From positions 1-33,638 of the forward strand of contig CAMOKZ010000003.1 in the NCBI GenBank assembly GCA_946618155.1: DNA of 33,638 nucleotides, in the 5' to 3' direction. Below are positions 1,184-17,512 of this stretch, piece after piece. Under the pieces are notes generated by a model, which was given only the letters and a program-made list of their open reading frames with translations, was not told the DNA's origin and did not search any database. Source of the stretch: an uncultured Lachnospiraceae bacterium. Its GTDB lineage: Bacteria; Bacillota; Clostridia; Lachnospirales; Lachnospiraceae. The translations under genes were made by a program, and so were the position numbers. The stretch's first letter is position 1, and each line of letters begins with the position of its first letter.

Positions 1184-3421
1184 TCATTTCGGACGGCTTC
1201 CGCGGGTCGCGCGGCTCCCGGTCCGCAGCTTCGCCAGCTCTACGGTCTTTGCCCCCACCGTGGCGCAGGCGCCCGGGTCTGCGGCAAGGTCATAGACGGC
1301 GCTGAGGGCGTCTCCCGAGGTCAGCCGGATGCCCTGCACCCCGACCGCGGTCTTCTTCTTGACCGGGATATCGGCAACGGAAAGCTTTAAGAGATAACCG
1401 TTCTTCGTCTCCAGCACGACCTGCCCTTCTTCCCCGGAAAGCGGGAGGATGGACAGCACTTTGTCGCCGTCCTGGAGCTTCGCGGCAGCGATGGTCTTTC
1501 TCGTCAGGGCAAACTCCGACGGCTCCACCCGCTTGACAAAGCCCATCTTCGTCGCGAACAGCAGGACCTGCCCCTCCAGGGCGTCCGACCGGAAGATGGC
1601 GACGATGCTCTCCTGGGCGCTGTCATAGTTGCACAGGTTGTCGACCGGCGTGCCCTTGTCCCGGAATTTGCCGAAGGGGATGGCCGAGACCTTAAGCAGG
1701 TGCTGCCTGCCCACGTCGGTGTAGACGCACAGCACCGAGCTGTTCATGCAGTGCAGGATAAGGCGGCACTCCGACTCGGCGGCCTCCCGGTTGCGCTCGA
1801 AGACGGTCTCATCCACCGCGCGCACATACCCGAAGCGATCCATCAGCACCACGACCGGGAAATCCTCCGGCTCCTCCTCGCGGATGACGGCCTGGGCCGC
1901 ATTCTCGATGCCGGTGCGCCTCGGGCGGCCGAATTCCTTCTTGATCTGCTTTAAGTCCCTGACGATGACCGCCGCCATGGAGCTGTAATTGTCCAGGATA
2001 TCCTGGTAGCGGTCGATCTTCTTCAGCGTCTCCTCGTGCTCCTTGATCAGGGCTTCCATCTCGAGGCCGATCAGCTTGGCCAGGCGCATCTCCAGGATCG
2101 CGTCCGCCTGCACCTCGGTGAAGCGGAGCTTCGCGGCCAGCCTGCGGGATTTCTCCGTCTTGAATTTGATGTCGTCGGTGATGCCCCGGATGAGGCAGTC
2201 CCGCACCTGCTTCTGGCTGCGGCTGCCGCGCAGGATCTCGATGATCAGGTCGATGACGTCCACCGCCCGGATCAGGCCCTCCTGCACCTCGCTCTTTTTC
2301 CTCTCCCGCTCCAGCAGGGTGCGGTACTTGCGCGTCGCCACCTCGAACTGGAAATCGATGTGATGCTCCAGCACGGAGCGGAGGCTTAAGGTCTCCGGTT
2401 TCCCGTCGGCCACCGCCAGCATGTTCACGCCGAAGGTGTCCTCCAGCCTCGTCTTTTTATAGAGGAGATTCTTCAGGTTCTCCACGTCTGCGCCTTTGCG
2501 CAGCTCAAGCACGATTCGGATGCCGTCCTTGGAGGACTGGTTCGAGATATCCGTAATGTCCGGCGCCTGCCTGGACTCGGCCAGGGCGGCGATGTCGCTC
2601 ATGAACTTGCCGATGTTCGCGCCGAGCATGGTGTAGGGGATCTCGGTGATGACCAGGCGCGTCTTCCCGCCCTTGACCTCTTCCGTCTCCACGCGGCCGC
2701 GCACCCGGATCTTGCCGGTGCCGGTCTGATAGATCTGCGCCAGCTCGTCCTTGTTTGTCACGATGCCGCCGGTGGGGAAATCCGGTCCGGGGATGAGGGT
2801 AAACAGCTCTTCGTCGGAGATGTCCCCCTTCTCGATCATGGCGACGACCGCGTCGATGACCTCGCCCAGGTTGTGCGGCGGGATGCTCGTGACCATACCG
2901 ACCGCGATGCCCTCCGAGCCGTTGACCAGCAGGTTCGGGAACCTGGCCGGCAGCACCAGCGGCTCCTTCTCCGTCTCGTCAAAGTTCGGGCCGAAGTCCA
3001 CGACGTCCTTGTCCAGGTCCGCCAGGAACATATCCTCGGTGATCTTCTCCAGCCTTGCCTCCGTGTAACGCATCGCGGCAGCCCCGTCGCCCTCGATGGA
3101 GCCGAAGTTGCCGTGGCCGTCCACCAGCGGAACGCCCATCTTGAAATCCTGGGTCAGCACCACCAGCGCGCCGTAGATCGAGCTGTCCCCGTGGGGATGG
3201 TATTTACCCATCGTGTCGCCCACGATTCTCGCACTCTTCCGGTAAGGCTTGTCGTGCCGGATGCCCAGCTCATGCATATCGTAGAGCGTGCGCCTCTGCA
3301 CGGGCTTTAAGCCGTCCCGCACATCGGGCAGCGCGCGGGAAACGATGACGCTCATCGCGTAATCGATATAGGACTTCTGCATGATCTCGGAATATTCTGT
3401 CCGGATGATCTTTTCTTCCAT
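1184..3421 (-). CDS. parC: DNA topoisomerase IV-type subunit A (type IIA, GyrA/ParC family)
   Basis: This is the breakage-reunion subunit of a type IIA topoisomerase, which passes one duplex through another to decatenate or relax DNA; it pairs with the ATPase subunit just upstream. From Met at 3421 it is 745 aa. The winged-helix region holds [10 protein letters not shown] and the catalytic AMRYTE motif (Tyr about 119). The C-terminal beta-pinwheel is present, with a degenerate repeat in place of the classic GyrA box (QRRGGKG), which favours ParC over GyrA. In the quinolone pocket Ser is kept (about 80), but the usual acidic residue four positions on is Gly (about 84). An upstream ATG at 3448 would overlap parE by 8 bases and has no ribosome site; the ATG at 3421 has AGAAGGG, so I chose it. 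The gene is tightly packed behind parE. A divergent gyrA cannot be fully excluded from sequence alone. Confidence 0.9.
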
Positions 3422-3440
3422 ACCCCTGTCCCTTCTTCTC

Positions 3441-5363
3441 TCAGACATCCAGCAGCGCGTCCTGCGCGTGCTCGTAAATGAACGCCCTGCGCGGCGGCAC
3501 GTCGTTGCCCATCAGCATCTCCGTCACATCGGAGGCCATGCGGGCATCCTCGATCTCCACCCGCTTTAATACGCGGGTCTCGGGATTGAGCGTCGTCTCC
3601 CACAGCTGCTGCGCGTCCATCTCGCCAAGGCCCTTATACCGCTGCAGGGTAAAGGAGCCGCGGTGGGTCTTCCGGTATTTTTCCAGGGCCGCGTCGTCGT
3701 AGAGGTACTCTTCCTTGCCTCTGGACGGAATGGCCTTGTAGAGCGGCGGCATCGCGATATAGACATGCCCCTCGTAGATCAGCTCCGGCATGAACCGGTA
3801 GAACAGCGTGAGCAGCAGCGTGCTGATGTGGGCGCCGTCCACGTCGGCATCCGCCATGATCACGATCTTGTCGTAGCGGAGCTTCGAAATGTCAAAGTCA
3901 TTGCCGTAGCCCTCGGAGAAACCGCAGCCGAAGGCGTTGATCATCGTCTTGATCTCCGCATTGGCCAGGACCTTGTCGATGCTGGCCTTCTCCACGTTCA
4001 GGATCTTGCCGCGGATCGGCAGGATGGCCTGGGTATTGCGGTCCCTCGCCATCTTGGCGGAGCCGCCGGCGGAATCACCCTCGACGATAAAGATCTCGCA
4101 CTTCGACGCGACCCGGCTCTCGCAGTTGGCCAGCTTGCCGTTGCTGTCGAAGGAGTACTTCGGCTTGGTCAGCAGGTTGGTCCGCACCCTCTCCTCGGTC
4201 CGGCGGATCTTCGCCGCGCGCTCCGCGCAGGAGAGGACCTGCTTTAATGTCTCCAGGTTCTTGTCGAAGAAAAGGACCACTTCCTCGGAGGTGACCTTGG
4301 CCACGGCCCGGGCCGCGTCCTGGTTATCCAGCTTGGTCTTGGTCTGTCCCTCAAAGCTGGGGTCCGGATGGCGGATGGAGATGACGGCGGTCATGCCGTT
4401 GCGCACGTCCGCGCCGGTATAGTTGGGATCCTTCTCCTTGAGGATGCCCAGCTCCCTCGCGTAGGAATTCATCACCTGGGTGAAGGCGGTCTTGAAGCCG
4501 GTCAGATGGGTGCCGCCCTCCGCATTGTAGATATTGTTGCAGAAGCCCAGCACGCTCTCGTGGAACTCGTTGACGTACTGGAAGGCGCACTCCACGACGA
4601 TGCCCTCGCTGCTGCCCGTAAAGTAGACGGGCGGCGTGACGGCCTCGTTGGTCTTATTCAGGTCCCGGATGAAGCCGATGATTCCGTCCGGCTCATGGAA
4701 CTCGCTGCGGACGGCCGGCGTCTGCCTGCGGTCCTCAAAGATAATGGTCAGGGTCGGGTTGAGGTACGCGGTCTCGTGCAGGCGGCTGGAAATGTCCCCC
4801 GCCGAAAAGCGCACGGTCTCAAAGATCTCGGGATCAGGCAGGAAGCGGACCCTGGTGCCGGTCTTTCTCGTCTTGCCGAGGGTGGGAAGCTTTCCGTTCT
4901 CGAGGGCGAGCACGGGGGTTCCCCGCTCATAGCGGTCGTGCCAGATCTGTCCGTCCCGGGAGATCTCCACATCCAGCCACGTGGAAAGCGCGTTCACCAC
5001 CGAGGAGCCCACGCCGTGCAGGCCGCCGCTGGTCTTGTAGACGGTGTCGTCGAATTTGCCGCCCGCGTGCAGGGTCGTAAAGACCAGCCGCTCCGCCGGC
5101 ATGCCTTTCTCGTGCATGCCCACCGGGATGCCGCGGCCGTCGTCCTCCACCAGGGCGGTCCCGTCCGCCTCCAGCGCCACGAAGATGCGGCTGCAGAAAC
5201 CGGCCAGATGCTCGTCGACGGCGTTGTCCACGATCTCATAGACCAGATGGTTAAGACCCTTCCGGGATGTGCTTCCGATATACATGCCGGGCCTTCTGCG
5301 TACCGCCTCAAGGCCCTCCAGCACCGTTATGCTCTTCTCGTCATACGTCCTGCTTTTTGCCAT
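3441..5363 (-). CDS. parE: DNA topoisomerase IV-type subunit B (ATPase, GyrB/ParE family)
   Basis: This ATPase subunit partners the ParC-type protein downstream. From the chosen start it is 640 aa, a length that fits ParE and Gram-positive GyrB. The GHKL ATPase has EIVDNAVDE (catalytic Glu about 43), DDGRGIP (about 74-80) and GGLHGVGSS (about 113-121). The TOPRIM domain has EGDSAGG (Glu about 428) and the metal-binding DADVDG (about 505-510). The C-terminal QRYKGLGEM motif is present. A longer frame reaches an ATG at 5462, but its extra 33 residues are Arg/Ala-rich shadow sequence inside topB; MAKSRTYDEK at 5363 is the normal family N-terminus and has GAAGGA just upstream. The gene overlaps the end of topB by 23 bases, which indicates translational coupling. 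Confidence 0.92.
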   Translation of the reverse strand: MAKSRTYDEKSITVLEGLEAVRRRPGMYIGSTSRKGLNHLVYEIVDNAVDEHLAGFCSRIFVALEADGTALVEDDGRGIPVGMHEKGMPAERLVFTTLHAGGKFDDTVYKTSGGLHGVGSSVVNALSTWLDVEISRDGQIWHDRYERGTPVLALENGKLPTLGKTRKTGTRVRFLPDPEIFETVRFSAGDISSRLHETAYLNPTLTIIFEDRRQTPAVRSEFHEPDGIIGFIRDLNKTNEAVTPPVYFTGSSEGIVVECAFQYVNEFHESVLGFCNNIYNAEGGTHLTGFKTAFTQVMNSYARELGILKEKDPNYTGADVRNGMTAVISIRHPDPSFEGQTKTKLDNQDAARAVAKVTSEEVVLFFDKNLETLKQVLSCAERAAKIRRTEERVRTNLLTKPKYSFDSNGKLANCESRVASKCEIFIVEGDSAGGSAKMARDRNTQAILPIRGKILNVEKASIDKVLANAEIKTMINAFGCGFSEGYGNDFDISKLRYDKIVIMADADVDGAHISTLLLTLFYRFMPELIYEGHVYIAMPPLYKAIPSRGKEEYLYDDAALEKYRKTHRGSFTLQRYKGLGEMDAQQLWETTLNPETRVLKRVEIEDARMASDVTEMLMGNDVPPRRAFIYEHAQDALLDV

Positions 5364-7443
5364 TTGTCCTTCGTCTTCCTCCGGCAGCGCCGCTGCCGCT
5401 TCCCTTCTTATAGTACTGCGCCGACGCGGCGAACGCGGTGCGCAAGCTTGCCTGGTTGCCAAGCCCCATCACGGCGCTGGTCCGTCTGCGGATAAACCCG
5501 TCCAGTTTATCCCGGTATTCCCCCGGCGTGATCTCTCCCTGCGCCACATAGGTCAGTCCCTTCTCCCAGCTGGCCGTCAGGTCAGGGTTCAGGAGCTGGC
5601 GCAGCGACGAGTCCACCACGTCGTAGATCATCTCGCCCATCTGGGTGGGCGTCAGGATCTGTGTTTTCTTATTCAGCTGAAGATAGCCGATGGAGACCAG
5701 CTTCTTCAGGATCTCCGCCCGGGTCGCGCTGGTCCCGATCCCGCTTCCCCGGATCTGCTCGCGCAGCTGCTCGTCCTCGATCAGCTGCCCGGCGTTCTCC
5801 ATGGCCAGGATCATGGAACCTGAGCTGTAGCGCTTGGGCGGCGTCGTCTCCCCTTCCTTGATGAAAAGGTCCGAGACGGGAAGCCGGCTTCCCTTGCGCA
5901 GCCGCGAGATGGCGGCGAGCAGCGCCTCGCTGTCGGCCCCTGCCGTCTCCCCGGCGCCCTCTTCCCCTTCGGGCTTTTCCTCCTCCGGGGATCCCTCCCC
6001 GGGTTTCGCGCCGGCCGCGCCCTGTCCCGGGCGCTTTGCCGCCTTCAGGTATCCCTCCTCCAGAAGGACCCGGAGGCTGGTGAAGAATTTTTCCTTCCCG
6101 ATCTGCGTGATCAGGCTTACCTTCAGGTAAACGGCGGGCGGCAGGAAAATGCCGAGGAACCGCCGCACGATCAGGTCATAGACGCCCTTTGACCGGGGCG
6201 AAAGGGAACCTAAGGCCTGGAACCCCTGTCCCGTCGGGATGATCGCGTAGTGGTCCGTGATCTGCTTGTCGTCCGTGTACCGGGTCTTCCCGATCTTCTT
6301 CCACTCCTCGCCGGAGAGGATCTCCGCGGCGATCTGCGCCGCCGGTCCGTAGCTCTTCAGCCCGCCCAGGTTCCTGCCGATCTCCTTCGCGACGGCGCTC
6401 GAGAGCACCCTCGCGTCCGTACGGGGATAGGTGACCAGCTTCTTCTCGTACAGCTCCTGCACCACGCGCAGGGTCTCGTCCGGGCTGATCCTGAACATCT
6501 TCGAGCAGTCATTCTGCAGCTCAGCCAGGTTGTAGAGCAGCGGCGGGTTTTTCTTTTCCTTCTTTTTCTCCGCTGAGACCACGACGGCCTCGAAGGGATC
6601 CGTCCCCTTCAGGCTCTCGATCATGGCCGCGGCGTCCTTTTTCTCTTTGAAGCCGTTCTCCTTATAGAGGAGCGGCGACTGGTAATAGGCCGAGCCTTCC
6701 ACCGCGCGGAACTCGCCCTCGATGGGCGTTCCTAAAGCGTCGAGACGGCACAGGACCCGGTAGAAGGGCTGCTTGACGAACCCGCGGATCTCCCGCTCGC
6801 GCCGCACCACCATGCCCAGCACGCAGGTCATCACCCGGCCGACGGAGATCACGCAGTAGCGCATGCCCAGGAATCCGGACACAGTATCCCCGTATTTTAA
6901 GGTGAGCAGCCGGGAAAAGTTGATCCCCATCAGATAGTCTTCCTGGGCGCGCAGATAAGCGGCCGCAGCCAGGTCGTCGTAGGCGGAGAGATCCTTCGCC
7001 TCCGCGATTCCGCGCAGAATCTCCTCCCTGGTCTGGGAGTCGATCCACACCCGCTTCTGGACCTTGCCCGTCACGTGGGCCTCCTGGGCGACGAGCCGGT
7101 AAATGTACTCGCCTTCCCGCCCCGAGTCGGTGCATACGTAGATCACGTCAACGTCACCCCGAAGAAGCAGGCCTTTGACGATACTGAACTGTTTTTTGAC
7201 GGAAGGGATCACTTCATACAGAAAGGTGTCCGGAATAAAAGGAAGTGTCTGCAGGCTCCAGCGTTTGAGCTTCGGGTCATAGACCTCGGGATAGCTCATC
7301 GTGATCAGATGTCCGACGCACCAGGTCACCACGTACCGTTCCGATTCCTGGTACCCGTCGCGCCGTTCGAAGGATTCGCCGAGCGCGGCGGCAAATTCCA
7401 TCGCCACGCTCGGTTTCTCAGCAATGAAGAGAGATTTCCCCAT
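5341..7443 (-). CDS. topB: DNA topoisomerase III (type IA)
   Basis: This enzyme cuts one strand through a 5'-phosphotyrosine and acts on single-stranded or catenated substrates such as replication and recombination intermediates. It is 700 aa. The TOPRIM domain opens with IAEKPS (Glu9) and has TDSGREGE (105-112); Gly in place of the second Asp is usual for Bacillus-type TopB. The catalytic motif is TYPRTD with Tyr339. The motif usually written GRVQTPTL reads GRVMTCVL (202-209), a divergence from the textbook enzyme. There is an acidic, low-complexity insert (Gly/Glu/Ala/Pro) at about 480-520, and I see no C-terminal zinc fingers. GGAG precedes the ATG at 7443 by about six bases. It lies 39 bases after asd and overlaps parE by 23 bases, so the three topoisomerase genes probably share an mRNA. 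No mobile-element neighbours are visible, although related topB genes often occur on integrative elements. Confidence 0.92.
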   Translation of the reverse strand: MGKSLFIAEKPSVAMEFAAALGESFERRDGYQESERYVVTWCVGHLITMSYPEVYDPKLKRWSLQTLPFIPDTFLYEVIPSVKKQFSIVKGLLLRGDVDVIYVCTDSGREGEYIYRLVAQEAHVTGKVQKRVWIDSQTREEILRGIAEAKDLSAYDDLAAAAYLRAQEDYLMGINFSRLLTLKYGDTVSGFLGMRYCVISVGRVMTCVLGMVVRREREIRGFVKQPFYRVLCRLDALGTPIEGEFRAVEGSAYYQSPLLYKENGFKEKKDAAAMIESLKGTDPFEAVVVSAEKKKEKKNPPLLYNLAELQNDCSKMFRISPDETLRVVQELYEKKLVTYPRTDARVLSSAVAKEIGRNLGGLKSYGPAAQIAAEILSGEEWKKIGKTRYTDDKQITDHYAIIPTGQGFQALGSLSPRSKGVYDLIVRRFLGIFLPPAVYLKVSLITQIGKEKFFTSLRVLLEEGYLKAAKRPGQGAAGAKPGEGSPEEEKPEGEEGAGETAGADSEALLAAISRLRKGSRLPVSDLFIKEGETTPPKRYSSGSMILAMENAGQLIEDEQLREQIRGSGIGTSATRAEILKKLVSIGYLQLNKKTQILTPTQMGEMIYDVVDSSLRQLLNPDLTASWEKGLTYVAQGEITPGEYRDKLDGFIRRRTSAVMGLGNQASLRTAFAASAQYYKKGSGSGAAGGRRRTNGKKQDV

Positions 7444-15833: not shown

Positions 15834-15859
15834 TCTGTTTTGCTCCTGTCTTTCCAGAT

Positions 15860-15915
15860 GCCGGCCCTTTAAGGACCGGCCGTTATCCCCGCCGCTTATT
15901 CCGGGGCTTTCCCCG
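15860..15915 (-). promoter_or_regulatory. pheS leader with two hairpins
   Basis: The 5' leader of pheS can form CGGGG/CCCCG (15902-15906 with 15911-15915) and, nearer the gene, an 8-bp GCCGGTCC/GGGCCGGC stem with one G-U pair (15860-15867 with 15873-15880). Neither is followed by a U-run. The leader is too short for a T-box and has no conserved T-box sequence. Whether the hairpins regulate anything is unknown. Confidence 0.35.
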
Positions 15916-15935
15916 CGCGGCAGCAGCCAAAAAAG

Positions 15936-15964
15936 ATTATATTGAACGATGCCTGAAAAATCAA
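15936..15964 (-). promoter_or_regulatory. strong sigma-A-type promoter of pheS-pheT
   Basis: TTGATT at 15964-15959, a 17-base spacer and a perfect TATAAT at 15941-15936. The -35 shares bases with the TGA stop codon of the upstream membrane-protein gene. Confidence 0.75.
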
Positions 15965-16848
15965 GAGAACTTTCTGGCCCGCATATAGCGCAGCACCATC
16001 TCGAAGGGCTCCGGGTTCTCGCGGTAGGCGTTGATCTCCGCGCCGATGAACCACAGATACATGCAGAAGTACAGCCACAGCATGGTGATGACCAGGGTGA
16101 CCAGGCTCCCGTACAGCCATGAGAGGTTGCCCGCGTTATTCAGATAGATCATATAGAAAAAGGTAAATACCGCCCACGAGACCGTCGTAAAGACCGCGCC
16201 CGGCAGCTGACGCAGCGGATAATTGCGCCGGTTCGGGAGGAAGGTATAAAACACGAGATTGATGACGACCGCCAGCAGAAAGGCGATCAGGAACTGGGAG
16301 TACGGGAAGAGAAGGCTGACCGGCTTTAAGAGGGGAAAGAGCTGCAGAAGGCGGGTCTGCATGCTGAGACCGCCGAGAAGCACACGGAAGGCCAGAATGA
16401 TCATAAATACCAGAAGCACGGTATAGAGGGAAGCGATCAGCCGCCGTATCACGTAATTTCTCTTTTCCGTCACCTGCCAGATCGTATTGAGCCCGTTCAT
16501 CAGTCCCATTACGCTCCGCCCTGCCACCCACAAAAGGGAGATCATCGCGAAGGAGAAGGTGGTAAACGATCCGTGGTAAACGCTGCTCACCAGTGTCCTC
16601 GTCCCCTCCGCCACCTCAGGCGCCAGGGGGGAGACCAGGGTGGAGATCGTCTCCAGCATGACCTCCTCGGTCAGCGGCGTAAACTTCAGGAATGCAAGCA
16701 GGAGGACGATGAAGGGCGCCACGCTCATGATGATGTAGAAGCTTGTCTGCGCGGCGTACGTATCGATCCGGTCATAGATGATCTTACTGTAAAAGAGGGA
16801 GAAGAGCCTTCTCCACTCGATCTTTCCGCGTCTTCTTCTGGACCTCAT
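15961..16848 (-). CDS. YihY/BrkB family inner-membrane protein
   Basis: This is a multi-pass membrane protein of 295 aa in the YihY (BrkB, formerly 'ribonuclease BN') family; the molecular function of the family is unsettled. A basic, cytoplasmic N-terminus (MRSRRRRGK) is followed by about six hydrophobic segments, roughly at 36-56, 95-115, 140-165, 185-210, 220-240 and 245-272. The family signature is in the last segments: [17 protein letters not shown] and [10 protein letters not shown]. The ribosome site is weak (AAAGAG about 11 bases before ATG 16848). It lies after the 6S RNA terminator, so it probably has its own transcript, but I see no clear promoter in the short remaining gap. Confidence 0.88.
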
Positions 16849-16881
16849 AAAAACCGTACTCTTTCTTTATCTTTTATCCCC

Positions 16882-16921
16882 AAAAACGATTATGGGACGA
16901 AACCGTCCCATAATCGTTTTT
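16882..16921. terminator. perfect 18-bp bidirectional hairpin terminator after 6S RNA
   Basis: AAAAACGATTATGGGACG (16882-16899) pairs perfectly with its inverse at 16904-16921, around a four-base loop. On both strands the stem ends in five T, so it can terminate in either direction. On the minus strand its stem starts two bases after the closing stem of the 6S RNA. Confidence 0.85.
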
Positions 16922-16923
16922 GC

Positions 16924-17110
16924 ATACCCGGGGTGCCGTTCCCTCTCTTTTTGACTCCTAGCCAAGCCAGGTGGGTAACCGCAGCTGCAGTCTCTGTCTT
17001 CCACTGACAAAGGAGGCCTGACATCAAAAGCAGCGCTATAGGAATCCCGTTTAAAGTAAAATGTAGGTTCAAAACTGAGAGGGGTGTCGAACACCCCAGG
17101 CATTATCTTT
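16924..17110 (-). ncRNA. ssrS: 6S RNA
   Basis: 6S RNA binds sigma-A RNA polymerase by imitating an open promoter and tunes transcription in slow growth. I call it from structure. A 12-bp closing stem joins AUGCCUGGGGUG (17103-17092) with CACCCCGGGUAU (16935-16924). Then CCCUCUC (17083-17077) pairs with GAGAGGG (16947-16941). A large asymmetric bubble follows: an A/U-rich 30-base 5' strand (17076-17047) opposite five A. Beyond it, GAUUCCUA (17046-17039) pairs with UAGGAGUC (16960-16953), GUCAGG with CCUGGC, and a 7-bp terminal stem CUUUGUC/GACAGAG has a 7-base loop. The CCUGGGGUGUUCG start resembles known 6S 5' ends. The span of about 185 nt fits the family. G-U pairs form on the minus strand where the plus strand would have A-C mismatches, which supports this strand. 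Ends are approximate. Confidence 0.85.
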
Positions 17111-17118
17111 TCTTCATG

Positions 17119-17148
17119 ATAATACGAAACGGTCTGTCACGCAAGCAA
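17119..17148 (-). promoter_or_regulatory. promoter of 6S RNA
   Basis: TTGCTT at 17148-17143, an 18-base spacer and TATTAT at 17124-17119. A start about seven bases later (near 17111) places the 5' end a few bases before the 6S closing stem. It lies directly after the stop codon of the small membrane protein gene. Confidence 0.55.
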
Positions 17149-17158
17149 AACGTGGGAC

Positions 17159-17512
17159 TTACCAGAAGCGGCCCTGCGCTTTCTTCGTGCGCACGATGAA
17201 CCAGACCAGGACAGCCGCGAATACCACGTAGCCCGTCAGGTACAGCCAGCGGTTGACCGGGCCGACGTAATCCTGATAGAGGCCGATGGCGCCGCTGAGC
17301 ACGCCGCCCAGGCCGAGCAGAAGGGTCGGCAGGCCGATGTAGGCGGCGTAGCCTTCCTTATCCTTGCAGGTCTTTGCCGGAAAACGCTCGGAGACCAGAA
17401 GGCCGTCCTTGAATTCCTTTTTCGCCACCAGCAGGTAATAGCCGTACAGAATATAGAGGCCGGCTGCCAGGACGATGAGATCCATGATCCCGTTGATCGA
17501 TGTCATATCCAT
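17159..17512 (-). CDS. small three-helix membrane protein, function unknown
   Basis: I do not recognise a named family. The protein has 117 aa with three predicted membrane segments at about 10-29, 57-78 and 88-107. Between the first two is a charged loop (KKEFKDGLLVSERFPAKTCKD), and it ends in a short basic tail (RTKKAQGRFW). GGGAGG lies about nine bases before ATG 17512. It starts 15 bases after the thrC stop, so it is very probably on the thrC transcript, but nothing in the sequence ties it to threonine; a transport-related or unrelated role is equally open. The 6S RNA promoter follows its stop codon. Confidence 0.8.
   Translation of the reverse strand: MDMTSINGIMDLIVLAAGLYILYGYYLLVAKKEFKDGLLVSERFPAKTCKDKEGYAAYIGLPTLLLGLGGVLSGAIGLYQDYVGPVNRWLYLTGYVVFAAVLVWFIVRTKKAQGRFW

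Follow-up and report, generated by a model that had tools for sequence, protein, structure and literature searches.

6S RNA (SsrS, Rfam family RF00013) is a familiar small RNA: it imitates an open promoter, binds and holds the RNA polymerase holoenzyme with the primary sigma factor, and accumulates in stationary phase. Bacillus subtilis has two such RNAs, 6S-1 and 6S-2. The former, also called BsrA, makes a 14-mer product RNA (pRNA), GUUCGGUCAAAACU, from nt 40 (PMC8876501), so that its template is AGUUUUGACCGAAC. Within the Lachnospiraceae, one Rfam-predicted 6S RNA is listed for Clostridium phytofermentans (PMC5171806), and our search of the literature on 6S RNA in this family found nothing beyond that paper.

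The DNA analysed here, referred to as the window, is a stretch of 33,638 nucleotides; the closest records that carry a name are metagenome assemblies of Lachnospiraceae. An element on its minus strand is, with a probability of about 0.98, the 6S RNA gene of this Lachnospiraceae-related bacterium, and nothing in the sequence counts against this reading. A cmscan search matched RF00013 at 16921-17105 over model positions 1-187 of 187, with a score of 72 bits against a gathering score of 46.4 and an E-value of 1.6e-12 for the window, and all remaining Rfam families scored far below their own gathering scores in this region. The earlier note had suggested a search with this covariance model and had placed a 6S gene at 16924-17110; its interpretation is supported, and strand and place were right, but the exact coordinates were not, the model match being shifted by 3-5 bases. 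The gene is an ordinary member of its family, sharing the rod, the closing stem, the second stem, the central bubble and the apical arm, and differs in nothing beyond the range of its own relatives. One more genome thus gains a correct annotation, and a reader of raw sequence proves able to recognise a 6S gene from its fold, with nothing new added on 6S biology.

Folding of minus-strand positions 16924-17110 gave -68.4 kcal/mol (z = -3.02; 2/200 dinucleotide shuffles were as good), compared with z = -1.90 for the plus strand. The minimum free energy (MFE) structure contains most of the predicted elements: the closing stem, expected at 12 bp, has 13 bp plus 2, and it is accompanied by the 7-bp second stem, an asymmetric central bubble rich in A and U on its 5' side, and additional paired stretches. 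G-U pairs, which had been noticed in the stems of this strand, make up 5 of the 55 MFE pairs. A 7-bp terminal hairpin was not clear as described, the apical end being weakly folded in the MFE structure; a short hairpin of 6 bp, CCUGGC-UUG-GCUAGG, is well conserved but belongs to the 3' side of the central bubble and not to the tip.

Covarying stems, proposed as a further check, were sought in an alignment of 30 homologues with a consensus structure of 45 pairs. Standard pairs occupied 94.1% of cells (85.6% in shuffles), two-sided changes were seen in 23/45 pairs (13.4 in shuffles), and the covariation score of 0.341 was twice the shuffled mean of 0.170; none of 500 shuffles reached any of these three values, and sliding the partners by 1-3 columns left 36-51% of cells paired, although shuffled and slid controls both favour the structure, since it was predicted on the same alignment and the sequences were picked by a structure-using model. 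The margin is nevertheless large, and the window's own 6S match is independent of the alignment. The closing stem, the large central bubble and the apical arm are all supported by covariation.

Two open reading frames of 78 aa (16867-17103) and 60 aa (16890-17072) overlap the 6S RNA on the minus strand, and relatives yield similar translations by tblastn, as might be expected if the stretch coded for a small protein and its fold were incidental. The frames, however, are interrupted by stops or shifted in the congener and most other relatives, variation among the homologues preserves base pairs, and the stretch fits the 6S model from end to end. The similar translations are explained by conservation of the RNA, and we consider a coding function to have practically no chance of being correct; for both overlapping frames it was rejected because they are broken in relatives, which makes them artefacts, as the earlier note had suspected.

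The 6S RNA gene lies in a gap at 16849-17158, which measures exactly the 310 bases attributed to it, between two membrane-protein genes on the same minus strand. Upstream stands a 117-aa membrane-like protein (17159-17512) that has no family match in Pfam or NCBIfam; the congener carries a homologue of 61% identity in the corresponding position. The downstream neighbour at 15961-16848 is yihY, which encodes a YihY/BrkB-family membrane protein (PF03631, E = 1.3e-44; TIGR00765 above cut-off) with 83% identity to its counterpart in the congener. The gene order thrC, 117-aa frame, 6S, yihY, pheS is common to both genomes.

As is usual for 6S RNA, the gene appears to have its own promoter and terminator, read here from sequence. 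The predicted sigma-A-type promoter (17116-17144, minus strand) combines a -35 element TTGCGT (17144-17139), a 17-nt spacer and a -10 element TATCAT (17121-17116), and both hexamers and their spacing are identical in the congener. A generic promoter scan found no site, since the -35 element matches at just 3/6 positions, and the promoter, which had been anticipated before the gene, therefore rests on the congener comparison. Behind the gene, likewise as anticipated, a Rho-independent terminator occupies 16882-16921, with an 18-bp stem, a 4-nt GUUU loop and a terminal UUUUU (-30.2 kcal/mol, z = -9.5); the congener has this hairpin too, slightly altered. With a predicted start at about 17109, the transcript would measure about 189 nt up to the terminator.

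The position of the element immediately ahead of yihY, in the same orientation, could also suggest a 5' leader or cis-regulator of that gene with a 6S-like fold and no free RNA, and three more Lachnospiraceae records likewise have 6S upstream of yihY. Against this stands the strong terminator between the element and yihY. The spacing also varies: in two further Lachnospiraceae contigs 6S precedes yihY in the same orientation but farther away (1.4-1.6 kb in L032 and L033), and in most relatives the 1.5 kb beside 6S contained no yihY that could be found. The intervening terminator and the variable distance led us to reject a yihY leader, the likelihood of which we regard as negligible.

The assembly, 1.96 Mb in size and about 89% complete, contains no RF00013 match other than the gene read as 6S RNA. 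Its single copy there and its neighbours, yihY and the 117-aa frame, set it apart from B. subtilis 6S-1. A survey of 61 genomes, comprising the window's own and 60 from its genus, family and order, yielded a 6S match in 57, with 53 above the curated cut-off. More than one copy was observed in a few of them. One same-order relative carries tandem matches (G056:C13:340673-340848 and 340900-341075; L003), 51 bases apart, on one strand and both far above cut-off, while genomes G041 and G025 each hold two copies on separate contigs. The lowest E-value of the survey belongs to a match of 87.5 bits on G041:C234 (L002:1501-1679), which also diverges more than any other row in the alignment, having UUUAGAACCAAC in place of UUUUGAACCUAC; its source genome has a second 6S copy, and this sequence may represent a different type of 6S or come from a stray contig.

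In the central bubble, UUUUGAACCUAC of the 5' side and ACCCACCU of the 3' side are nearly invariant in the 30 homologues. The former is the core of a putative pRNA template, AGUUUUGAACCUAC, at 17063-17076 (minus strand), proposed from this conservation and from its likeness to B. subtilis 6S-1: it agrees with AGUUUUGACCGAAC at 11/14 bases and keeps the initiating C (PMC8876501). In both RNAs, moreover, the free fold already shows a small hairpin on the bubble's 3' side (PMC8876501). By analogy, the pRNA of the window gene is probably GUAGGUUCAAAACU, starting opposite the C at 17063.

A mode of action can be proposed on the model of 6S RNA from Escherichia coli and B. subtilis. The RNA, with its 5' end near 17109 and its 3' end either near 16921 or at the terminator that follows, would fold into a rod whose central bubble mimics an open promoter. 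It would bind the RNA polymerase holoenzyme containing the primary sigma factor and damp transcription under nutrient shortage; copying of the 5' side of the bubble by the polymerase into a short pRNA would then release the 6S RNA. For B. subtilis 6S-1 a central bubble collapse helix has been reported. When 14, 18 or 22 template bases were blocked in silico, a weak test that considers energies only, no clear collapse helix of this kind was obtained and the apical arm was rearranged instead. This rearrangement is why release by a refolding unlike that of 6S-1 was proposed, which we consider improbable.

Elsewhere in the window and its relatives, two further observations were made. In L032 a T-box leader (L032:3894-4147) sits between yihY and pheS. 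A T-box search of the corresponding gap in the window (15834-15960) came back empty even with the cut-off set at E = 1, so these relatives may differ in how pheST is controlled. In addition, three topoisomerase genes follow one another on the minus strand at 1184-7443, encoding a type-IA topoisomerase (5341-7443) and subunits B (3441-5462) and A (1184-3448) of a gyrase or topoisomerase IV; the frames of the type-IA enzyme and subunit B, as listed, overlap by 122 bases, which probably reflects an over-extended TTG start.
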